IMG/VR virus record: IMGVR_UViG_3300010354_000575
Span: 1-25,605 of that record
Source: a virus
DNA: 25,605 nucleotides
Direction: 5' to 3' (one strand)
Shown: piece by piece, positions 3,429 through 25,068 of the stretch
Numbering within the stretch: the first letter of the stretch is position 1
How the letters are laid out: each line of letters starts with the position of its first letter
The notes under the pieces: generated by a model
What the model was told of the DNA's origin: nothing
The model's database searches: none
What the model saw: only the letters and a program-made list of their open reading frames with translations
Program-made: the position numbers and the translations under genes

Positions 3429-3886
3429 TGAATGCTTTTTACCGCAAAGCCACCTTTGCCGATGCATTGCAAGTTGGTTTAAACCTACGAGAAGAAGACA
3501 GGCGTGAGATCGAAGGTCTTGGTCATTCACCTTTAATCCTCCCTGCTTGCGTTCAGACCAGTCGGGAGTCCGTAGCCTTCTTTGATGAAGATGGATCTAT
3601 TGCAGGGGTTGGTGGCATCTCGCCAGACCCCTCTAATAGCGCCTGTGGCATCGTTTGGCTTCTATGTACGCCTGTCATACATAACAAACCCCAGACCTTT
3701 GTTAGAGGGGCTCGTAGGTGGCTCTCAGAGCACGAACAGAACTACAAGCTTCTATGGAACCTGGCAGACGCAAGGAACCACTATCACCACAAGCTACTAA
3801 GGATGCTCGGCTTTAAGGCTCTGAGAGTAGTTAATACTAGACCATATTTTCTTCCATACTTGGAGATAGTCAAACTATGTGCTTAG
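3428..3886 (+). CDS. Internal virion protein, T7 gp13-like, GNAT-like fold
   Basis: This 152-residue protein lies between the nozzle and the gp14-like gene, where T7 has gene 13 (138 residues). The sequence resembles an acetyltransferase fold: RKATFADALQVGLNLREEDRREI at the start, a central strand pair (VAFFDEDGSIAGVGGI), and a late helix-strand pair (HHKLLRMLGFKALRVV) like the closing GNAT helix. T7 gp13 is a minor virion component needed for assembly or infectivity. Acetyl transfer has not been shown for it, to my knowledge. The start overlaps the previous stop by one base and the end overlaps the next gene by ten bases. Confidence 0.8.
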   Translation: MNAFYRKATFADALQVGLNLREEDRREIEGLGHSPLILPACVQTSRESVAFFDEDGSIAGVGGISPDPSNSACGIVWLLCTPVIHNKPQTFVRGARRWLSEHEQNYKLLWNLADARNHYHHKLLRMLGFKALRVVNTRPYFLPYLEIVKLCA

Positions 3887-4599
3887 CAGCAATCGGTATT
3901 GCAGCTGGTGCTGCCTCAGGCACTGGTGCTGCTGCTTCCTTGGGTGCTGCGATTGTTGGTTCTGTTATCTCAGCTGCTAGTACAGCTGCAGGCATCTACC
4001 AACAGCAGCAACAAATGCAGTATCAGACTGCAATGAATCAATATCAGGCTGACGTTAATTACCAACAGCAAAACATTGCTTTTCAGAACCAGCAACGTCA
4101 GGCCTATTTTGATAAGCAGCAGCAAGTCACCAAACACATTGGTGATGTCCAGGCTCAGCAGGCTTCAATGCTTGCGTACCAGCGCAACATTTACAACAAC
4201 AACGAAGCTGCCAACAAGGTCTACGTGTCCGAGCAGCAGAAGATGCTTGAGGCAAAGCAAAAGGCAGCGTTTAAGTCCGTTGATATTTACGCCAAACAGA
4301 TCGGTTCTATGGGCAAGGTCCTGAGTTCCGGTGCCGTTGGTAAGTCCGTTGGTCTTCTGGCTATGGACTCAGAGCGGGCAGCTGGTCGCGCTATGGCTGA
4401 GCAGAACGCAAGCATCCGTAGTGCTGGTGACTCTATGACCATTGGCATGGCCGCTGCACAGAACCAAAGCGAATCTGCTAACAACCAGGCTCTCTCTCGC
4501 GTCTCTGCACCTATCCAGGCTCCACAGTTTGCACCCTATGCAACTGGTATTGGTCAGAACCTTGGTCTTGGCATCCCCTCTTATAACTGGGCAGCATAA
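3877..4599 (+). CDS. Internal virion protein, T7 gp14-like core protein
   Basis: This 240-residue protein is in the T7 gene 14 position (T7 gp14 is 196). Residues 1-40 are rich in alanine and glycine and hydrophobic enough to insert in a membrane. Residues 41-90 are glutamine-rich (QQQQQMQYQ) and likely a long helix, followed by a lysine- and alanine-rich helix and a small-residue C-terminus ending NLGLGIPSYNWAA. T7 gp14 is ejected first and forms the outer-membrane part of the ejection channel; the same role is inferred here. The start lies inside the previous gene, and the stop forms TAATG with the next start. Confidence 0.85.
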   Translation: MCLAAIGIAAGAASGTGAAASLGAAIVGSVISAASTAAGIYQQQQQMQYQTAMNQYQADVNYQQQNIAFQNQQRQAYFDKQQQVTKHIGDVQAQQASMLAYQRNIYNNNEAANKVYVSEQQKMLEAKQKAAFKSVDIYAKQIGSMGKVLSSGAVGKSVGLLAMDSERAAGRAMAEQNASIRSAGDSMTIGMAAAQNQSESANNQALSRVSAPIQAPQFAPYATGIGQNLGLGIPSYNWAA

Positions 4600-7139
4600 T
4601 GGCTAGGATCTACGAACAACAAAACTATGGCGATCTCTTCGAGAGTCATGCCAGATCCCGTGAGTTTAACCCTGTAGCTGCATACGACCCGTCCAATCAG
4701 ATCCAAGAAAGGACACGTCAAAAGCTACAAGACATTCAGATGTTGGCTCGTGGCGCACAGCGTCAGTACGAGCTGGATCAGATGTATGTCCAGGCAGAGA
4801 GTGCTAATCGGAGCAGGAACATTACCCTCCAGAGCTCCCAGTCTACGAGCACTACTCAGACCATGAACTCTTTGATGCAGCTCTCAGGGCTAGCAGCAAA
4901 GACCTATGGGACTGTTAACGAGGCTGCAGCAACTTATAAAGCCGAAGTTCTTGAACTTGAAGGTGTTGGACTGGGCTTGGATCCTAACATCCAGCTTACT
5001 CCTGAACAGCAACAGCAAGAAGCTGAGAAGCAAACTGCTATCAAAGCTGATTCTAAGGGGACCACTGAGGTTGCTACAGAGCTCACCAAGGCTGGTGGAC
5101 TTGAGAACCAGGGCGTCGCTCATGCTCTTCAGCAGACCACTGTCTATCAGTCCCTGAAAGGCGCTGAGAACAACACCTTTGCGGCTATCGCTGCTTACCC
5201 GGCTTTCCTTACTGAGTTTCGGAATGCTACCCCTGCGGACAAGCTTCCCAAGACACCTGCAGAGACTCAGGCTTATCTACTTGAAGCCAACCGTCTGTTC
5301 TTCCGACAGACCGGGATGTATGGCGCTTCCCATGCTGACAAGCTTCGCCTGGCCCGCTCGATGGCTGGTACAGGGCAGAACTTTATTCTTCAACAGGTCA
5401 CTCAGACCATCAAGTTTGAGAAGGACGAAAACCTTGCCGATGCTAAGGCTTTTGTCTCTACCCTTGTTGATGCTCACGGGACTGAGCAGGGAGTAAGTGT
5501 CCAGGAAATCTGGGATAAAGGATCAGCTCGCTACCTTCAAGGGAACGTTGGCTACAACGATAATCCCAGAGGCGGTAATCGTGCTGCTCTGGAAGACATG
5601 CTCCAGAATGCTGTCGACCAAGGTAACTCTGCTTTTATTGAGCAACTTGCTAATGTTGAGAAAGTTCCAGGAAACAAAGGAACCCGTCTTGGCAAGGAGT
5701 ACGACGATGTCTTTGATAAGTATCGCCGGCAGCTTCGTCAGCAGAAGATTCAGGACTACAACCTGAGAGAGGCTGAAGAGAAGGTCCAGGTTGGTGAGGT
5801 TATCCGTGACTACATGGAAAACCCAACTGTCCCTGGAGCTCGACGTAAGGCCATTGAATCCTTGTTTGCTATTGGCACTGACGCTGCTATCAAGGAAGCA
5901 CAAAGTCTTCTTGAGAAGGGTTTCAATTACGACCCCACCAAGGCCCTAGAGCTTGAGGACATTCGCTCCAGAGGTGGAACTATTGATCAGGGTCAGCTTG
6001 ACTCCATGATGAAGCAGGGAGTCATCTCTCCTGATGAGTACAAGCGTTATACCAAACGTGGTCCCGCAGCTGAAGCCGATAAAGAGGTTAGTAAATTCCT
6101 CAATAGCTTAAGTGCTAGCTACAAGGCAGCCATGCAGGGTAATGCACCATCTACGGCGCTTACCCAAGACCTCAAACTTCAACTCATTTCACGTCACCAA
6201 CTCTTCATGGATGAGTTGAAGCAATCGGTGATGATGGAGATTGCTGTTAATCCCAACCTGGCCAATGACAAGGCAGCCCTTTCCAAGTTGGTAGAGCAAA
6301 AGTCTGCTGTGCTCATCAAACAGCCTCAGTATCAGCTCAAGCCCGATCCCAGGGCAGGCTGGCACTTCTCTGGTGACTTGAATCCCACCAGGAACTTGAT
6401 TAAGGCCAATCGTGGTGGCTACTACGACTTCTCTTCTTTGCCTGCTGAAAAACTCTTTGGCCCTAAGATTTCGATTCCACTAGGACAAGTTAAGGTAGGT
6501 AGAGACCGCTTCATTAGTTATGAAGCTCTGAAGTCCGATGTGCGTGCTGTCCTTGCTGGACGTGATGCCTCGAACAACACCCGTTTGATTGCCAAGAAGT
6601 TTGGGCTGAGCTCCCAAGCCTTTGTTGATCAGCAGCTTAAGGCTTATGGCCTCCCTGGCATTGCTGCGCTTAAGGAGTCTCCCGATGGGCAGGCTCTGAT
6701 GCCTGGTGGTGATGGTGATGTGCGGGACGCTTCCCACGGCATGCGCCTTCTACGTGCTGTTGGCTTTCCTAAGAAGTCTGCTGCCTACCTTGCTGGCAAC
6801 ATCCAACAGGAAAGCGGTTTTACCGGCCGTCGTGAATGGTATAGCCCTATGGACGATGGATCTGGCCGCAATGGTGGTCTGATCTCTTGGAACCAAGGAC
6901 GCATTAGAAACATTGAACGCTACTTCGGTAGAAACATCAAATCCATCACTGAGATTGAACAGCTTCAGTACATGGTGATGGAAATGAAGCGGTCCTACAA
7001 AGCTGCTTACCGAGTCTTTATGAACCCTAACTCGTCAGAGAACGATCTGAGGCGAGCCTCTTATCACTACTGGGGTTACGGCCATGAGGGCGCTCGGTAT
7101 GCATATGCAAAAAGTCTCGAGAAATACGGACGTATCTAA
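4599..7139 (+). CDS. Internal virion protein, gp15-position core protein with C-terminal phage tail lysozyme domain
   Basis: This 846-residue protein holds the T7 gene 15 position (T7 gp15 is 747). Residues 1-690 are mostly helical with long charged stretches (for example DYNLREAEEKVQVGEVIRDY near 395), as expected for the ejected core tube. From about residue 706 the sequence changes to a globular domain: MRLLRAVGFPKKSAAYLAGN, then IQQESGF with E738 as probable catalytic acid, then GGLISWNQGRI, which fits the GL-x-x-W signature of phage tail lysozymes. It ends in a helical bundle. A peptidoglycan-cutting role during DNA ejection is inferred. T7 has this activity in gp16, as an unrelated transglycosylase. 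The core-protein call rests on position. Confidence 0.85.
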   Translation: MARIYEQQNYGDLFESHARSREFNPVAAYDPSNQIQERTRQKLQDIQMLARGAQRQYELDQMYVQAESANRSRNITLQSSQSTSTTQTMNSLMQLSGLAAKTYGTVNEAAATYKAEVLELEGVGLGLDPNIQLTPEQQQQEAEKQTAIKADSKGTTEVATELTKAGGLENQGVAHALQQTTVYQSLKGAENNTFAAIAAYPAFLTEFRNATPADKLPKTPAETQAYLLEANRLFFRQTGMYGASHADKLRLARSMAGTGQNFILQQVTQTIKFEKDENLADAKAFVSTLVDAHGTEQGVSVQEIWDKGSARYLQGNVGYNDNPRGGNRAALEDMLQNAVDQGNSAFIEQLANVEKVPGNKGTRLGKEYDDVFDKYRRQLRQQKIQDYNLREAEEKVQVGEVIRDYMENPTVPGARRKAIESLFAIGTDAAIKEAQSLLEKGFNYDPTKALELEDIRSRGGTIDQGQLDSMMKQGVISPDEYKRYTKRGPAAEADKEVSKFLNSLSASYKAAMQGNAPSTALTQDLKLQLISRHQLFMDELKQSVMMEIAVNPNLANDKAALSKLVEQKSAVLIKQPQYQLKPDPRAGWHFSGDLNPTRNLIKANRGGYYDFSSLPAEKLFGPKISIPLGQVKVGRDRFISYEALKSDVRAVLAGRDASNNTRLIAKKFGLSSQAFVDQQLKAYGLPGIAALKESPDGQALMPGGDGDVRDASHGMRLLRAVGFPKKSAAYLAGNIQQESGFTGRREWYSPMDDGSGRNGGLISWNQGRIRNIERYFGRNIKSITEIEQLQYMVMEMKRSYKAAYRVFMNPNSSENDLRRASYHYWGYGHEGARYAYAKSLEKYGRI

Positions 7140-17494: not shown

Positions 17495-18049
17495 ATGATA
17501 CTGCTTCCAGTCAAGCAGTATTACTTACAGACCGACAGTGCCACTGAGCATGGAGATCGGATGTGCTTTAGCTCAACGTGTGCTATGGCCATCAAATATC
17601 TCAGGCAGGATGCGCTTAAGGGCAGTAATGCTGACGATAGCTATTTAAAAACAGTTTTAAAATACGGGGATACAACCCAATACACGTCTCACATTAAAGC
17701 CTGCAGCGACTACGGTGTCCATGCCAGTTTCTATCAAAATGGAACTCGTACTGCTCTGCTATCAGAGTTAAAGCAAGGCTTTCCAGTCGCCACTGGTGTG
17801 CTTCATAAAGGCCCTGTGTCAGCTCCACGTGGTGGGGGTCACTGGATGCTTTTGATTGGTGATGATGGCATCAATGGCATCTTTCATGACCCCTACGGGG
17901 AGATGAACAATGTTGCTGGTGGCTATGTCACCCGTGGATCTGGTGGATGTGAGGTCCGTTATACCTGGACAAACTGGATTCGGCGTTGGGCTGTTGAAGG
18001 GAATGGAACCGGGTGGTTCATGACTTTTAGGCCCAAGGAACCCAAATGA
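17495..18049 (+). CDS. C39-family-like cysteine peptidase, endolysin candidate
   Basis: This 184-residue protein carries a papain-like layout of the C39 type. Cys24 opens the helix in MCFSSTCAMAIKYL (compare the usual CGPxSLAM), His116 lies in GGGHWMLLIG and Asp132 in HDPYGE. C39-like domains cut peptide bonds, in bacteriocin leaders or in peptidoglycan cross-links. Between a holin-like protein and a membrane-anchored coiled coil, cleavage of host peptidoglycan is the natural inference. There is no signal peptide, so export would need the holin. The start is four bases after the previous stop, and the stop overlaps the next start (ATGA). It replaces the T7 amidase (gp3.5), which sits elsewhere in T7. 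Confidence 0.8.
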   Translation: MILLPVKQYYLQTDSATEHGDRMCFSSTCAMAIKYLRQDALKGSNADDSYLKTVLKYGDTTQYTSHIKACSDYGVHASFYQNGTRTALLSELKQGFPVATGVLHKGPVSAPRGGGHWMLLIGDDGINGIFHDPYGEMNNVAGGYVTRGSGGCEVRYTWTNWIRRWAVEGNGTGWFMTFRPKEPK

Positions 18050-18776: not shown

Positions 18777-19043
18777 ATGGACACTCCCCGAAGCCTCATG
18801 CATGAACTCCTCACGTTTCGCAGCTCTGATGCCAAGCGAATGTGGAGAGATGAGATCAAGCTTCGGGATAACAATCGCTGCGTTTATTGCGGTTCCACCG
18901 CCAATTTGACGATTGATCATGTCCGCCCCCGCAGCAAGGGGGGTGAGACATCAGCTACTAATTGTGTAACCGCCTGTCGTTCTTGTAACCAGGCCAAAGG
19001 ATCTATGACGGTCCAAGAATTTCTGTACTACCAAACTGCTTAA
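18777..19043 (+). CDS. HNH endonuclease
   Basis: This 88-residue protein has a complete HNH signature. Cys35 and Cys38 (CVYC) and Cys67 and Cys70 (CRSC) form the zinc pair, Asp47-His48 lies in LTIDHVRPRSKGG, Asn62 follows, and Asn71 sits in the C-terminal NQAKGS. The basic helix before the domain (RMWRDEIKLRDNNRC) is usual for small phage HNH proteins. Its place between small and large terminase genes suggests a role in DNA cutting at packaging, as known for HNH proteins beside terminases in other tailed phages. A free-standing homing endonuclease is the alternative. Confidence 0.88.
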   Translation: MDTPRSLMHELLTFRSSDAKRMWRDEIKLRDNNRCVYCGSTANLTIDHVRPRSKGGETSATNCVTACRSCNQAKGSMTVQEFLYYQTA

Positions 19044-19284: not shown

Positions 19285-19324
19285 TAGAGGCATCTACAAG
19301 GCCCTACGAGGCCTGTTGATTGCC
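19285..19324 (+). other. Nested hairpin after the 76-residue gene
   Basis: GAGGCA (19287-19292) can pair with TGCCTC (19319-19324), enclosing AGGCC and GGCCT arms separated by CTACGA. No T run follows directly (CTTTGG comes next), so termination would be weak. It separates the HNH unit from the lysozyme-terminase unit. Confidence 0.4.
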
Positions 19325-19350
19325 TCTTTGGTGTCTCCCATCCTTCTGCC

Positions 19351-19384
19351 CTCTAGGGGCCTCTCCAGGGGGCTTCTAGGGGGC
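19351..19384 (+). repeat. Three imperfect tandem units of the form CTCTAGGGGC
   Basis: The units are CTCTAGGGGC (19351-19360), CTCTCCAGGGGGC (19361-19373) and TTCTAGGGGGC (19374-19384). TCTTTTTAT and the next start codon (19403) follow. G runs lie on the + strand. They may serve ribosome binding or be a protein-bound repeat; no function is known. Confidence 0.5.
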
Positions 19385-19402
19385 TCTTTTTATAGCTACC
19401 CC

Positions 19403-20173
19403 ATGGCACCTCGTAACTACTTTGCTGTCACCAGATCAGCAGAACTTGAAACCGCTTGGAACTACCTGACTAGCGGCCAAGCTTCTAAAGAGAGTGGTGG
19501 CAGGCTTCCTAAATTCACACCTCAACAGGCAGCAGGCCTTATTGGCTCTTGGATCGTCGAGACCGGCAGACCAAACCTTAAAGGCCTTGATGTTATCGAA
19601 AAGGGAGCTGGCCTTGGACGGGGTCTCTCCCAGTACACAGGCGAGCGACGCATTGCCTACGACAAGGCGCGTGCTGCTGCCTTGCGGGCTGGACAAGATC
19701 CCAACTCCATCCAGTGGCAGCTGAAGTACTTCGTTCAGGAATACGTCGGTAAGCACGACCTGAAGCCTGGGGCCAGCCTTAGCGGGTGGACCCGTGTGTT
19801 TGAGAACTCCCCGGCCAAAGGCTCTCCGGGGTTCTTTGCTCAGTACTTCACCGGCTCTGCCGCCACGGGCACGGGTTACTTCCGACCGTCCGTCCCTCAC
19901 ATTGAGAAACGCCAGGACGCTGCCAATCAGGTCTACAAGCTCTTCTCGACCCCTCCTACTCCCCCACCGCCTGTACCGGAAAAAAAGAACCTCTTCCAGA
20001 TTCCATTCTTCAAAAGTGAAGCCATGCCCATGGGGCCTCAGGGGCCTTACACCCCGCTGCCATCTCCTGGTTGGAATCCTGGAATGACACAACCAACAGG
20101 CAGTCCCACCTTCCGACCTTCCCCGATCTGGGAGCGGATCCTCCCGACTGGAGCCAAGGTACCGTTCGCATGA
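19403..20173 (+). CDS. Phage lysozyme-like protein with proline-rich tail
   Basis: From ATG 19403 this is 256 residues. A longer TTG start at 19316 would add 29 residues read through the G-run repeats and is judged less likely. The N-terminal domain resembles phage tail lysozymes: AAGLIGSWIVETGRPNL with E58 as candidate acid, then GLGRGLSQYTGERRIAYDKA, which fits the G-L-x-Q-W/Y-x-G-x-R signature, then SIQWQLKYFVQEY. From about residue 185 the chain is proline-rich (TPPTPPPPVPEKK) and low in complexity. It could be an endolysin or a virion lysozyme. Its stop overlaps the large terminase start (ATGA at 20170-20173). Confidence 0.75.
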   Translation: MAPRNYFAVTRSAELETAWNYLTSGQASKESGGRLPKFTPQQAAGLIGSWIVETGRPNLKGLDVIEKGAGLGRGLSQYTGERRIAYDKARAAALRAGQDPNSIQWQLKYFVQEYVGKHDLKPGASLSGWTRVFENSPAKGSPGFFAQYFTGSAATGTGYFRPSVPHIEKRQDAANQVYKLFSTPPTPPPPVPEKKNLFQIPFFKSEAMPMGPQGPYTPLPSPGWNPGMTQPTGSPTFRPSPIWERILPTGAKVPFA

Positions 20174-21903
20174 ATGTTCAAGAACTTGATCGCCGCATCA
20201 GAGAAGACTTCAAGGTCTTCCTGACATTGATCTGGCGGGAGCTTGGTCTCCCCAAACCAACAAGGGCTCAGCTGTCCATTGCGGACTACTTACAGCACGG
20301 GCCGAAGCGTCTGCAGATATCCGCCTTTCGTGGTGTTGGCAAAAGCTGGATTACCGCTGCCTTTGTCCTATGGACTCTCTACAACGACCCGGATCGGAAG
20401 GTGATGGTGATCTCGGCCTCGAAGGAACGAGCCGACAACTTCTCGATCTTCTGTCAGAAGCTCATTCTCGATATTTCTTGGCTCTCCCATCTGGGGCCGA
20501 AATCAGACGACCAGAGGTGGTCGCGGATCTCCTTCGACGTAGGGCCGGCAAAGCCCCACCAGGCACCCTCTGTGAAAAGTGTGGGCATCACCGGTCAGAT
20601 GACTGGTTCCCGTGCCCATTTGATGATTTTTGATGACGTGGAGGTCCCCCTCAACTCAGCCACTGACATGCAGCGCGAGAAGCTGCTGCAGCTGGTCACA
20701 GAAGCCGAGTCGATCCTGACCCCTGATGAGACCAGTCGGATCATGTTCCTGGGGACTCCACAGTCCACCTTCACCGTCTACAGAAAGCTTGCTGAGAGGT
20801 CCTACAAGCCCTTTGTTTGGCCCGCTAGGTATCCCAGGGACCATGGCCGCTATGAAGGCCTTCTAGCGCCTCAGCTGCTGGAAGATATCGAAGCTGGTGC
20901 CCAACCCTGGGAGCCAACCGATGATCGCTTCACCGACTCCGATCTCCTAGAGCGGGAAGCCGCCATGGGGCGCTCCAACTTCATGCTCCAGTTCATGCTT
21001 GATACCAGCATGACGGACGCTGAGAAGTTCCCTCTGAAGTTCGCTGATCTGATCGTTACTCCTCTCGGTCCTGAATGCGCTGAACGATATGCTTGGTCCT
21101 CTGATCCACGCTATTGCCTTAAAGAACTGTCTGCTGTGGGCCTACCTGGAGATCGCTTCTATGGACCCATGTTCATTGACGAGGGAATCGTTCCTTACGA
21201 TGAAACGATTGTATCGATTGACCCGTCAGGACGAGGCAGTGATGAAACTGTGGCCTGTGTCGTTAGCCAAGCTAATGGATACATTTTCCTCCGTTCCCTA
21301 AAAGCCTATAAAGATGGGTACTCTGACGATACTCTTTCTGACATTGTTCGTCTTGCTAAGCGTTACAACGCAACCAAACTCCTAGTCGAATCCAACTTCG
21401 GTGATGGCATGGTCGCCGAGCTCCTCAAGCGACACGCCATTCAAGCCCAGGCTCTCCTCGACATCGAAGAAGTCAGAGCCACCGTCCGCAAGGAAGAGCG
21501 CATCATCGACACCCTGGAGCCGGTGATGAACCAACACAAGCTCATCATTGACCCCAAGGTCTTTGAGTACGACTACAAGTCCAACGAAGACGCTCCCCCT
21601 GAAAAGCGTCTGGAGTACATGCTCATGTACCAGATGTCCCGCATGTGCCGGGAGAAGGGAGCCGTCAAGCACGATGACCGCATTGACGCTCTCTCTCAAG
21701 GCGTTCAGTACTTCATCGATGCCCTCGCTCAGTCCGCCTACCAGGCCCAGGCCCTACGCAGACACGAGGAATGGACCGCCATGCAGGAAGCCTTCCTAGA
21801 GGCACCACAACAGGCCACAGATTGCCTTGTATTGGGCCTCAGCTTTAAACAGGCAATACGTGGCAATAAACCAGTCTATGACTGGGTTTCTCCCTCTCGT
21901 TAG
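20170..21903 (+). CDS. Large terminase subunit (T7 gp19-like, DNA maturase B)
   Basis: I start this at ATG 20170, giving about 577 residues (T7 gp19 is 586). An ATG at 20071 in frame would add 33 residues but overlap the previous gene by 103 bases, whereas 20170 gives the usual ATGA overlap. Walker A is AFRGVGKSW near residue 52, Walker B LMIFDDVE near 151, and the coupling motif is FLGTPQ near 192. The nuclease acids are D350 in SIDPSGRGSDET, E406 in VESNFGDGM and D501-D502 in KHDDRIDAL. The protein powers DNA translocation and cuts concatemers. Whole stretches match T7 gp19 as I remember it (ISASKERAD, SVKSVGITGQ). Confidence 0.97.
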   Translation: MNVQELDRRIREDFKVFLTLIWRELGLPKPTRAQLSIADYLQHGPKRLQISAFRGVGKSWITAAFVLWTLYNDPDRKVMVISASKERADNFSIFCQKLILDISWLSHLGPKSDDQRWSRISFDVGPAKPHQAPSVKSVGITGQMTGSRAHLMIFDDVEVPLNSATDMQREKLLQLVTEAESILTPDETSRIMFLGTPQSTFTVYRKLAERSYKPFVWPARYPRDHGRYEGLLAPQLLEDIEAGAQPWEPTDDRFTDSDLLEREAAMGRSNFMLQFMLDTSMTDAEKFPLKFADLIVTPLGPECAERYAWSSDPRYCLKELSAVGLPGDRFYGPMFIDEGIVPYDETIVSIDPSGRGSDETVACVVSQANGYIFLRSLKAYKDGYSDDTLSDIVRLAKRYNATKLLVESNFGDGMVAELLKRHAIQAQALLDIEEVRATVRKEERIIDTLEPVMNQHKLIIDPKVFEYDYKSNEDAPPEKRLEYMLMYQMSRMCREKGAVKHDDRIDALSQGVQYFIDALAQSAYQAQALRRHEEWTAMQEAFLEAPQQATDCLVLGLSFKQAIRGNKPVYDWVSPSR

Positions 21904-21913
21904 CACCTAGGTG
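21904..21913. repeat. Perfect palindrome CACCTAGGTG right after the terminase stop
   Basis: The ten bases following the TAG are their own reverse complement. This could be a protein site or chance. It opens a run of inverted repeats up to 22033. Confidence 0.4.
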
Positions 21914-21920
21914 TCCGCTT

Positions 21921-21948
21921 ACGCTGAGGAAGTGGTGCTCCTCAGTGT
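21921..21948 (+). terminator. Ten-pair hairpin downstream of large terminase
   Basis: ACGCTGAGGA (21921-21930) pairs with TCCTCAGTGT (21939-21948) through ten pairs including one G-T, with an eight-base loop. GGATTTTGCGG follows, so only a short T run is present. It is the first of two or three stacked hairpins ending the late operon. Confidence 0.55.
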
Positions 21949-21963
21949 GGATTTTGCGGTGAT

Positions 21964-21989
21964 AAGGGCCCTGAAAGACGGGGCCCTTT
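21964..21989 (+). terminator. Strong terminator hairpin, end of the late operon
   Basis: AAGGGCCC (21964-21971) pairs perfectly with GGGCCCTT (21981-21988) around a nine-base loop, followed by TTCCTCC. Together with the hairpin 16 bases upstream this most likely ends late transcription before thyX. Confidence 0.65.
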
Positions 21990-21991
21990 CC

Positions 21992-22020
21992 TCCCCCTCA
22001 TAGAACACAGTCCCCCTCAT
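21992..22020. repeat. Direct repeat TCCCCCTCAT, two copies 19 bases apart
   Basis: TCCCCCTCAT occurs at 21992-22001 and again at 22011-22020. The second copy also forms the left arm of a hairpin with the G run at 22025-22033 (AGTCCCCC with GGGGGACT). Confidence 0.6.
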
Positions 22021-22046: not shown

Positions 22047-22086
22047 TGAAGAGAACACACACAAAACAAGACAGCACTAATAAGTA

Positions 22087-22162
22087 GAATATATTATATA
22101 TGGGAGAATATAGCCGCTTACTTTGTAAGACAGAATATCATCCTCCATATTATATATAGCCG
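22087..22162 (+). promoter_or_regulatory. AT-rich region with repeated ATATTATATAT, probable promoter of the thyX unit
   Basis: ATATTATATAT occurs at 22091-22101 and 22147-22157, each followed by AGCCG (12-16 bases after the first copy, directly after the second). This is the most AT-rich stretch of the window and sits directly before thyX, with several possible -10 boxes (TATTAT, TATATA). I cannot define a matching -35 box with confidence. Confidence 0.45.
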
Positions 22163-22176
22163 TATACCCACTCTCT

Positions 22177-22830
22177 ATGTCTGATGTTTCTCTGATCTCA
22201 GTCACTCCTAAAGCAGAAGAGCTGATTGCTTACTGTGCCAGGGTCTCTAACCCTCAGAATCAGGATAACCCTGATAGTGAGAGACTGATTCGTTACCTCA
22301 TCACCCACCAGCACTGGTCTCCCTTTGAAATGGCTCATGTGGTGATGGAGATCAACACCACCCGTTCTATCGCTGCTCAGATCCTCCGCCATCGGAGCTT
22401 CTCCTTCCAAGAGTTCTCTCAGCGGTATGCCGATGTCTCCAGCCTTGACTTCGCTAGAGCCCCTCAGCTCCGCCGTCAAGACACCAAGAACCGTCAGAAC
22501 AGCATCGATGATCTCGATAGTGCTGTGGTGATGGGGTTTACCCGTCGTATCTCCCGCCTCTTTGCTGAGACAGAAGACATCTACCGGGAGATGGTGTCTG
22601 CTGGGATTGCCAAGGAGTGTGCTCGGGATGTACTCCCCCTAGCCACTCCAACCCGCCTCTACATGGCTGGCAGTGTCCGTTCCTGGCTGCATTACATCGA
22701 TCTGCGATCTGGTAATGGCACCCAGCGTGAACACCAGATCATCGCCCTTCAGTGCAAAGAGACACTCCGTAAGGCACTGCCCACTGTCTTTCAAGCTTAT
22801 TTCGGTTGTATCAATGGCCCTCTTCCCTAA
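22177..22830 (+). CDS. thyX: Flavin-dependent thymidylate synthase ThyX
   Basis: This 217-residue protein carries the ThyX signature RHRSFSFQEFSQRY at residues 71-84 (family pattern RHR-x7-8-S-x-R). It also has HQHWSPFEMAHV near 45-56 and a C-terminal SWLHYIDLRSGNGTQREHQI, with the arginine and Q-x-E-type residues that bind dUMP. ThyX makes dTMP from dUMP with FAD and methylenetetrahydrofolate. In phages it supports thymidine supply for replication and is common in cyanophages. It opens a unit of overlapping small genes and has its own AT-rich upstream region after a strong terminator. Length and motifs are complete, so it should be active. Confidence 0.96.
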   Translation: MSDVSLISVTPKAEELIAYCARVSNPQNQDNPDSERLIRYLITHQHWSPFEMAHVVMEINTTRSIAAQILRHRSFSFQEFSQRYADVSSLDFARAPQLRRQDTKNRQNSIDDLDSAVVMGFTRRISRLFAETEDIYREMVSAGIAKECARDVLPLATPTRLYMAGSVRSWLHYIDLRSGNGTQREHQIIALQCKETLRKALPTVFQAYFGCINGPLP

Positions 22831-22939
22831 AGCGTCCCTCGCTACCCGTAAGACCTTCTCTGGTCGACTCACAGATCGTCAAGCCAAAGACCGCAGCTTT
22901 GACGCCAAGACCAGTTCGGTTGTCGTTGTCAAATACTGA
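22814..22939 (+). CDS. Micro-ORF, 41 residues, overlapping thyX
   Basis: An ATG at 22814 lies inside thyX (17-base overlap, other frame). It opens 41 residues beginning MALFPKASLATRKTFSGRLT and ending KTSSVVVVKY. The protein is basic, with six lysines and five arginines. No family is recognised. Support comes from its place in a chain of overlapping frames: its stop shares one base with the next start (TGATG). The aliphatic VVVVKY end is unusual. Confidence 0.5.
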   Translation: MALFPKASLATRKTFSGRLTDRQAKDRSFDAKTSSVVVVKY

Positions 22940-23115
22940 TGAGCTTCAACGCAAATACCCAATACAAAGCCATTGACCTTCAACAACTTGCCAACGAATG
23001 TCGTCAAGCCATTGAAGGTCGATCTTCTTCTACTGCTGATCAGTGGGAGGGGGAGGATCTTCATCAGTGGCCCCTAGAAGCGTCTCTAAGGGGGTTTAAG
23101 GCTGATGTTGGATAG
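22939..23115 (+). CDS. Small ORF, 58 residues, tryptophan-containing acidic protein
   Basis: An ATG at 22939 shares a base with the previous stop and opens 58 residues (MSFNANTQYKAIDLQQLANE and so on, with STADQWEGEDLHQWPLEASL near the end). It is mildly acidic with two tryptophans and no membrane segment. No family is recognised. The stretch WPLEASLR is coded by the first copy of a 21-base repeat whose second copy codes ALEEALR in the last micro-ORF of this unit. Confidence 0.5.
   Translation: MSFNANTQYKAIDLQQLANECRQAIEGRSSSTADQWEGEDLHQWPLEASLRGFKADVG
23072..23092 (+). repeat. Copy 1 of a 21-base hairpin-forming repeat
   Basis: The repeat begins CCCTAGAAG and ends CTCTAAGGG and is identical to 23401-23421 at 19 of 21 bases. 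CCCTAGA can pair with TCTAAGGG leaving one bulged A and a six-base loop. Both copies are read in the same frame. Confidence 0.75.
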
Positions 23116-23395
23116 GTTGGTCCTAAATGAGTTTAAAGACGCTTACAAGGGCTTACAGCCCTATCTGGTGAAGCCCCTTGATTTCCTCGTCTATGGGCTG
23201 TTGATCTGGTTGCAGGACAAGGTCATTGATTACAAGACCACCGTTGCTGTTGATGAGGCCATTCGTGCCTTTGAACAGGCTGAAGTGAAGGAGCCTCCGT
23301 TGACTGAGGGTGTGTACTCAGAGAGCGGGAGTGATTTCTTCGATGAGATGAGGATGACTGCCCGTTTTGCATTGAACAATGAAAAGTCCTCGTGA
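23105..23395 (+). CDS. Hypothetical 96-residue protein with one possible membrane-associated helix
   Basis: An ATG at 23105 overlaps the previous ORF by 11 bases. Residues 24-40 (PLDFLVYGLLIWLQDKV) form a hydrophobic stretch that could touch a membrane or pack in a helix bundle. The rest is helical and acidic (VDEAIRAFEQAEVKEPPLTE, then SDFFDEMRMTARFALN). It is the largest unknown gene of the thyX unit. No family is recognised. Confidence 0.6.
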   Translation: MLDRLVLNEFKDAYKGLQPYLVKPLDFLVYGLLIWLQDKVIDYKTTVAVDEAIRAFEQAEVKEPPLTEGVYSESGSDFFDEMRMTARFALNNEKSS

Positions 23396-23507
23396 GGGGG
23401 CCCTAGAAGAGGCTCTAAGGGCTGTGGAGGCTAAGGGGAATGCCACCCTGGCCGATAGCATTAGAAGGGCCTTAAAGGCGCTCAGAGAGGCCTCTGAAAA
23501 GGTCTGA
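23379..23507 (+). CDS. Micro-ORF, 42 residues, single amphipathic helix
   Basis: An ATG at 23379 overlaps the previous gene by 17 bases and opens 42 residues starting MKSPREGALEEALRAVEAKG and ending DSIRRALKALREASEKV. The whole protein reads as two amphipathic helices rich in alanine, leucine, arginine and glutamate. It contains the second copy of the 21-base repeat. No family is recognised; real expression is suggested by the coupled layout only. Confidence 0.5.
   Translation: MKSPREGALEEALRAVEAKGNATLADSIRRALKALREASEKV
23401..23421 (+). repeat. Copy 2 of the 21-base hairpin-forming repeat
   Basis: This copy differs from 23072-23092 only at its 10th and 12th bases, both inside the hairpin loop or its edge. 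The bulged stem is retained in full. Confidence 0.75.
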
Positions 23508-23654
23508 GTATTTTGCCACAAATTTCCAAAGGGATAGCGCCAAATGCGTCGCGAGCCCTGCCCCCCTATACCCCCCACCCATCGAAATAAACCGGGCCCC
23601 CCATCGCTCCTGAATGGGTGCGGCCGCTGGAATCGCAAGCTCTGCCTGGGTTCT
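23508..23654. other. Noncoding interval at the late-to-early boundary
   Basis: No convincing + strand gene occupies 23508-23654. Frames on the - strand here run into thyX-unit genes and look like shadows. The stretch begins AT-rich and then holds a C-run element (23555-23580) and a GC-rich part with a GCGGCCGC site at 23620-23627. A physical genome end or concatemer junction could lie here or in the 273 bases before thyX. Confidence 0.4.
23555..23580 (-). promoter_or_regulatory. Reverse-strand copy of the G-run TATA element
   Basis: Read on the - strand this is GGGT, six G, TATA, six G, then CAGGG. It matches the + strand element at 22021-22046 except for two missing bases before TATA and single changes. 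Together the pair brackets the thyX unit in opposite orientations. Confidence 0.4.
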
Positions 23655-24348: not shown

Positions 24349-25068
24349 ATGACCAACGGCATCAACTGGAATGGGCGCGTTCTTTGGCAGGGCAACAGCC
24401 CTATCGATGGCGCCCCGATTGTCTGCATTGTCACCGGCCTGACTGAGGCCAGCGGCAACAGCAAGACGGGCCGGATGCTTCAGGTGTGGATCCTGCGAGC
24501 TGACTGCCCACCCCACCATGCTTTTAAGGATGGACGGGGACGGAGCGTGTGCGGTAACTGCCCACACGCTGGCTACAACAACGGCACGTGCTACGTGCGG
24601 TGGTATCAGGCCCCACTATCAGTGTGGAACTGCTACCAGCGCGGCGGCTACCTGCCCATCGGTTACAGCTGGGACCTGTTTGATGGGGCCACGGTTCGGT
24701 TCGGCTCTGCCGGTGATCCGGCAATGGTGCCGGCTGAAATCTGGGCCAACATCCTTCAGCACTGCGCTAAGCACACTGCCTACACCCATCAGTGGCGGCA
24801 GCCTTGGGCGCAGCATCTGAAGGGCATCGCTCAGGCCTCCTGTGATGGGTTCGCTGATTACTTGGATGCTTCCGCCCATGGGTGGAAAACCTTCCTAGTC
24901 AAGCCAGCCCATATCGAAGCGCCTGCAGGCACTGTGCATTGTCAGGCCAGCATCGAAGCAGGTCAGAAGACAACCTGTGCCCTATGCACCCTGTGTGATG
25001 GGGATCGCCGCCACGTGGTGATCAACGCCCACGGAGCCAAGGCCGCCAAGGTTGCTTTTATTGCTTAA
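24349..25068 (+). CDS. Cysteine-rich phage protein of unknown function
   Basis: This 239-residue protein has two cysteine clusters. The first is SVCGNCPHAGYNNGTCYVRW (C68, C71, C81) after a DGRGR turn. The second is near the C-terminus, TTCALCTLCDG (C210, C213, C216), followed by RHVVINAHG. Other marks are KTGRMLQVWILRADCPP near 40, VWNCYQRGGY near 93, and SAHGWKTFLV near 175. I recognise this pattern from proteins encoded by many phages and some plasmids with no established activity; their place beside replication genes has led to suspicion of a replication role. Zinc binding is inferred from the cysteine pairs. The protein looks complete. Codon use is richer in GGC and GCC than in the late genes. 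Confidence 0.8.
   Translation: MTNGINWNGRVLWQGNSPIDGAPIVCIVTGLTEASGNSKTGRMLQVWILRADCPPHHAFKDGRGRSVCGNCPHAGYNNGTCYVRWYQAPLSVWNCYQRGGYLPIGYSWDLFDGATVRFGSAGDPAMVPAEIWANILQHCAKHTAYTHQWRQPWAQHLKGIAQASCDGFADYLDASAHGWKTFLVKPAHIEAPAGTVHCQASIEAGQKTTCALCTLCDGDRRHVVINAHGAKAAKVAFIA

Follow-up and report, generated by a model that had tools for sequence, protein, structure and literature searches.

A candidate right-end cassette of a T7-like cyanophage with a lineage-specific insertion after thyX and a putative lysis-module protein

The five overlapping ORFs that follow the large terminase gene (terL) of this T7-like cyanophage do not form one functional unit. The whole block is best explained, with a confidence that we put at about even, as the right-end cassette of the phage, into which micro-ORFs were inserted and in which the small protein o96 belongs to the lysis module. 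The window analyzed here comprises 25,605 bases, makes up an entire virus record, and represents a partial genome. For comparison we used isolate genomes, viral contigs, and a near-identical contig of 45,382 bp (G001, the record of L091) whose ends are identical over 52 bp, which suggests a circularly closed assembly. The initial annotation had described thyX and four micro-ORFs as a chain with overlaps of 17, 1, 11, and 17 bases, and the ORF listing reproduced these coordinates and overlaps exactly, with ATG as the start of all five. Its proposal of one functional unit after terL stood as regards the tight chain and the purifying selection on o96 and o42, but not as a five-gene unit dedicated to ThyX. 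The genes of the block and the insertion are the following:

20071..21903, + strand: terL, large terminase of T7 type (PF22530, E 2.5e-34; phrog_38, E 1e-113); its true start may lie downstream of the TTG
22177..22830, + strand: thyX, flavin-dependent thymidylate synthase, 217 aa (PF02511, E 1.4e-47)
22783..23078, unstranded: lineage-specific insertion of 296 bp, from the alignment of the window with L092
22814..22939, + strand: o41, ORF of 41 aa found in this lineage only, with matches limited to three near-identical contigs
22939..23115, + strand: o58, mosaic ORF of 58 aa; residues 1-25 match an ORF found elsewhere and the C-terminus is the displaced 3' end of thyX
23105..23395, + strand: o96, conserved small protein of 96 aa (PHROG 22672/16742) with a hydrophobic helix and the C-terminal motif SESGSDFFDEMR(L/M)TA
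23379..23507, + strand: o42, conserved small ORF of 42 aa overlapping o96 by 17 bases

Dinucleotide shuffles of positions 22811-23510 gave four or more ATG-started ORFs of 41 aa or longer in 0.2% of cases. When the 296-bp insert was shuffled alone, one ORF of this minimum length arose in 26% of cases and the observed pair in 1.2%. The chain is therefore improbable by chance, while a lone 41-aa ORF is not. A Shine-Dalgarno-like AAGG was found only for o96 among the ORFs of the chain, and the TGATG junction between o41 and o58 would suit coupled translation.

The identity of ThyX, judged from its sequence, is beyond doubt: the match to PF02511 covers the whole domain (residues 6-203) and scored 162.4 bits against a curated cut-off of 24.8. 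The motif RHRX7S is the ThyX signature, and it is present as LRHRSFSFQEFSQRY, read directly in the translation. The gene yielded a dN/dS of 0.21 (NG86, window vs L092), and its product would provide dTMP for phage DNA. Comparison with L092 also revealed that the last ~16 codons of thyX were replaced by the insertion, so that the protein now ends in QAYFGCINGPLP where L092 has KAVWG. In cyanopodoviruses, thyX is already known to sit behind terL at the right end, and in Prochlorococcus phages talC replaces it in the same position (Huang et al. 2015, PMC4646655). A promoter is not mentioned in that text, and no mention of o96 was seen in the passages considered here. Compared with the marine cyanopodovirus locus as it is described there, the present lineage shares thyX after terL and differs by the 296-bp insertion and the altered C-terminus of ThyX.

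A compact control region lies between terL and thyX, and comprises the following elements:

21908..21924, + strand: putative phage-RNAP promoter TAGGTGTCCGCTTACGC (17-mer), with two matches in G001 and the position of the Syn5 promoter
21922..21947, + strand: conserved, covarying hairpin with loop AGTGGTGC; the transcript would be expected to begin here
21946..21963, + strand: conserved linker TGTGGATTTTGCGGTGAT, its GTGGA columns invariant and GCG nearly so across 24 sequences
21964..21988, + strand: intrinsic terminator stem followed by TTTCC, from its fold

The terminator that the initial annotation placed upstream of the chain was borne out in silico by the RNA fold (z -3.9 for 21922-21995) and by conservation of the stem in near relatives. 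The AT-rich, promoter-like region at 22080-22170 fared differently: sigma-70-type matches there (5 vs 3.7 +/- 1.8 by chance) were not above chance, and it was rejected as a sigma-70 promoter. This region is also poorly conserved over most of its length, and the 17-mer at 21908-21924 appears to be the better promoter candidate. On the coding strand of G001 the promoter-like sequence has two good matches, one of them early and the other after terL; their mismatches number 0 and 2, against five in the third-best match. Downstream of the early copy (L209-L211, coding-strand coordinate 3830) lies another small hairpin, GGGGAATACCCC, which differs and does not have the conserved loop. A proven 15-bp promoter has been published for the RNAP of phage Syn5 (PMC3950665); we located it right after the Syn5 terL and, within the first 20 kb, once more at 4929, inside the RNAP gene. 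Two copies per genome, one of them right after terL, are common to both phages; the sequence of the putative promoter differs from that of Syn5. T7 likewise has a phage promoter, phiOR, just after terL, but in the present phage the hairpin and the terminator come after the promoter.

The 7-bp core stem of the hairpin was paired in 168 of 168 cells (45-68% in slid controls), with double changes at 5 of the 7 pairs; these double changes numbered 37, against 11.2 in shuffles, among sequences that are related to each other. An outer pairing (ATTACC/GGTAAT), seen by eye in some relatives, was dropped because it is not present in Syn5 or P60. Among viral contigs, the hairpin pattern recurred in no fewer than 120 stretches. 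We recognized terL in 69 of the 79 hairpin pieces examined, and the loop lay 18-80 nt past the terL stop in nearly all 69. The invariant loop GTGGTGC and the linker TGTGGA..GCGGT were found after terL in many cyanopodophages, including Syn5 (L084), P60 (L085), and L225-L303, and a related hairpin occupies the same site in S-CBP4 and P-SSP7. The control region is tied to terL, not to thyX. No gathering-score match to the hairpin or within the window was found in Rfam, which returned only sub-threshold chance hits. A leader RNA, a replication primer, or a packaging signal are possible roles for the hairpin, and its presence at the second phage promoter offers a handle on right-end control in these phages.

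Alignment of the window with L092 halts at 22782 and restarts at 23079, while L092 is contiguous at that point; therefore, the lineage of the window holds 296 extra bases, spanning the whole of o41 and the larger part of o58. The latter ORF is a mosaic because its end is read in the frame of thyX and can be aligned to the former thyX tail. Its first 25 residues are 72% identical to an ORF in the viral contigs L123/L124. ORFs of this type, starting with MSFNANTQYKAID, occur within a cluster of small ORFs around position 3001 in L123/L124 and at 6703-6993 in L213; this cluster is possibly a mobile small-ORF module. Phage records yielded no donor of the insertion, whether o41 and o58 were searched by tblastn or the segment by blastn, and searches of G001 and sister records gave the known copies alone. 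Among relatives that keep thyX, o41 and o58 are confined to three contigs nearly identical to the window; sister phages whose ThyX is 70-78% identical are without the insert, which for these two ORFs is the kind of outcome that the initial annotation had named as refuting its unit.

Gain of this segment between thyX and o96 would have given thyX its new C-terminus and created both o41 and o58, which are probably recent by-products of the insertion and possibly non-essential. We consider it fairly probable that they are chance ORFs at a junction that tolerates spacer DNA. Around ten other loci have spacers of 130-184 nt between thyX and o96, and this junction is therefore a recurrent insertion point; moreover, a single ORF of the required length is readily produced by shuffling, as described above. 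What this reading explains less well is that both frames are open and the coupled junctions exact in all four contigs. The alternative, that the insertion brought functional new genes such as host-takeover peptides, seems rather doubtful to us. The rarity of the ORF pair in shuffles, the match of residues 1-25 of o58 in other viral contigs, and the 3 synonymous and 0 non-synonymous changes of both ORFs pooled against L091 are in its favor, but o58 shows 0 synonymous and 2 non-synonymous changes against L090 (all the data amount to 5 changes), its C-terminus is only the displaced thyX end, the searches returned no other homologue, and neither ORF has a Shine-Dalgarno sequence.

The last two ORFs of the chain are conserved. 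The initial annotation had assigned none of the micro-ORFs to a recognized family, which proved wrong for o96: residues 3-94 of its 96 matched the profiles of PHROG 22672/16742 (E 6.6e-11), while no match was found in Pfam. The library lists the function of PHROG 22672, 16742, and 3316 as unknown. Estimates of dN/dS, the check proposed at the outset, pointed to purifying selection on both o96 (0.14-0.21; 0.14 for window vs L092, NG86) and o42 (~0.26 vs L092, NG86). On sequence evidence, o96 represents an old cyanophage family under purifying selection. The identity of o42 was 78% in L092/L094, 76% in L093, and 49% in L119 (a weak homologue); its 17-base overlap with o96 is kept in L092-L094, and no homologue was found in phage records.

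An o96-profile search retrieved 79 loci (L126-L204), of which 78 had the order terL-thyX-o96; this search was keyed on o96 motifs, near-duplicates were included, and terL went unrecognized in a few short loci. In most of them, the thyX stop and the o96 start overlap by 1 to 22 bases. The same order is found in S-CBP1, S-CBP3, S-CBP4, S-SRP01, and DSL-LC07. The gene order after terL, which the initial annotation proposed to check in relatives, was kept for terL-thyX-o96 but not for o41 and o58, which are private to the lineage. In P-SSP7, P-SSP2, and P-GSP1, thyX is absent and o96 lies between terL and talC, and in L189 it occurs without thyX. The L189 neighbor, which stands in for thyX there, is a 107-aa ORF of unknown family (3675-3998) flanked by terL and o96. 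Since o96 follows terL with thyX, talC, or another ORF as its neighbor, and so outlasts thyX at the locus, thyX and talC give the impression of interchangeable cargo. The suggestion that the micro-ORFs serve nucleotide metabolism together with ThyX is contradicted both by o96 without thyX and by the lack of o41 and o58 in the sisters.

Homologues of o96 extend beyond the podoviruses. The T4-like cyanophages S-CAM7, S-B68, DSL-LC03, and S-CREM1 carry members (phrog_3316) in which an N-terminal hydrophobic segment is clear and the C-terminal EMRL..PW motif recurs; over the C-terminal half, hhalign showed the podovirus and myovirus families to be homologous (97.5%, E 7e-12). This C-terminal motif was lost in the P-SSP7 group. 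A search for myovirus members with a single sequence yielded 3 loci, and one with an alignment yielded 80. A lysozyme2-like ORF was found upstream of the o96 homologue in 78 of the 78 testable myovirus-type contig loci, within 200 nt in 37 of them, within 310 nt in most of the others, and up to ~1.8 kb away in the rest. None of 80 thyX-centered control loci had such an ORF; the comparison is indicative rather than a formal test, because the controls come from other phages and some of the contig loci are near-duplicates. In P60, far from thyX and upstream of terL, a PF18013 lysozyme gene overlaps the gene of the o96 homologue, gp46. The window itself has two genes of lysis type:

17495..18049, + strand: C39-peptidase-like protein of endolysin family phrog_10051 (E 2.6e-59)
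19316..20173, + strand: lysozyme-domain gene (PF18013, E 5.2e-13) directly before terL, of the family linked to o96 homologues elsewhere

Between these genes and terL, positions 18777-19043 hold an HNH endonuclease gene (phrog_2214), possibly of the homing type.

A lysis role of o96, as a small membrane protein rather than one of nucleotide metabolism, is in our estimate an evenly balanced proposition. Within it, o96 is most likely holin-like or inner-membrane-spanin-like, and a partner of a phage lysozyme or endolysin. The protein would insert by its central hydrophobic helix, and its conserved C-terminal tail would contact a partner. The hydrophobic stretch of the podovirus members is short (KD19 0.8-1.5, against 1.7-2.0 in myovirus members). 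The AF2 model, of low confidence (pLDDT 62), has a long helix at residues 23-59 and a disordered tail; the model of the myovirus type, from three sequences, is of low confidence too (pLDDT 60). No match of o96 to holin or spanin families was found, including Pfam holins, and the sole holin PHROG hit, with 2 members, was weak (E 0.18). Comparison by hhalign with gp17.5, the T7 holin, showed no homology (probability 0.3%), and o96 was rejected as its homologue. The T7 lysis and packaging region (17.5 holin, 18.5/18.7 spanins, 19 terL, phiOR) has small membrane-protein genes near terL; o96 is without homology to 17.5 and sits after terL and thyX. A limited search of libraries and papers returned no described membrane lysis protein of cyanopodoviruses.

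Two other readings of o96 can be set against the lysis role. An accessory operon, in which o96, perhaps together with the micro-ORFs, binds ThyX or a complex that makes dNTPs, or regulates either of them, would fit the tight and mostly overlapping thyX-o96 junction of most relatives. It would also fit cyanomyovirus S-CREM1, since the o96-like gene is there two genes before thyX and no lysozyme was seen nearby. We nevertheless judge it quite improbable: o96 stays where talC or another ORF replaces thyX, its P60 homologue adjoins a lysozyme gene away from thyX, all testable myovirus-type loci have a lysozyme beside it, and the sisters do without o41 and o58. The other reading makes o96 a protein of the virion or of packaging, expressed late through its adjacency to terL; it could be, for instance, a membrane-active peptide that is internal or bound to the tail and is injected along with the lysozyme. 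In podoviruses o96 is always near terL, and PF18013 carries the name "phage tail lysozyme"; the PF18013 protein may be virion-bound rather than a lysis enzyme, which counts against the lysis reading. However, o96 has no homology to any structural PHROG, and its direct neighbors in S-CAM7 are without structural annotation, yet a putative tail fiber gene lies 3.2 kb upstream, and we regard a virion role as unlikely.

In the sequence of the right-end cassette, terL is followed by the putative phage-RNAP promoter, the hairpin, the terminator, and an exchangeable metabolic gene (thyX, or talC in Prochlorococcus phages), with o96 beside that gene, after thyX or before talC, and o42 behind o96. Transcription of these genes would take place late and jointly, either starting at the right-end promoter or reading through from the structural genes, and their translation would use the overlapping starts. 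The lysozyme linkage of o96 is a new lead for PHROG 22672, 16742, and 3316, and a small lysozyme-linked family in T7-like and T4-like cyanophages represents a concrete lysis candidate that is testable in E. coli. More speculative, and in our view on the doubtful side, is that o96 founds a lysis-protein family across T7-like and T4-like cyanophages with a conserved tail motif, cytoplasmic or periplasmic (SESGSDFFDEMRLTAPW), and that the right-end promoter of cyanopodoviruses carries, in the covarying hairpin that follows terL, a structured leader RNA or a DNA signal not described before. Further downstream in the window, a 239-aa ORF (24349-25068; phrog_2554/DUF7227) is 96% identical in L097/L133, and the intervening region diverges.
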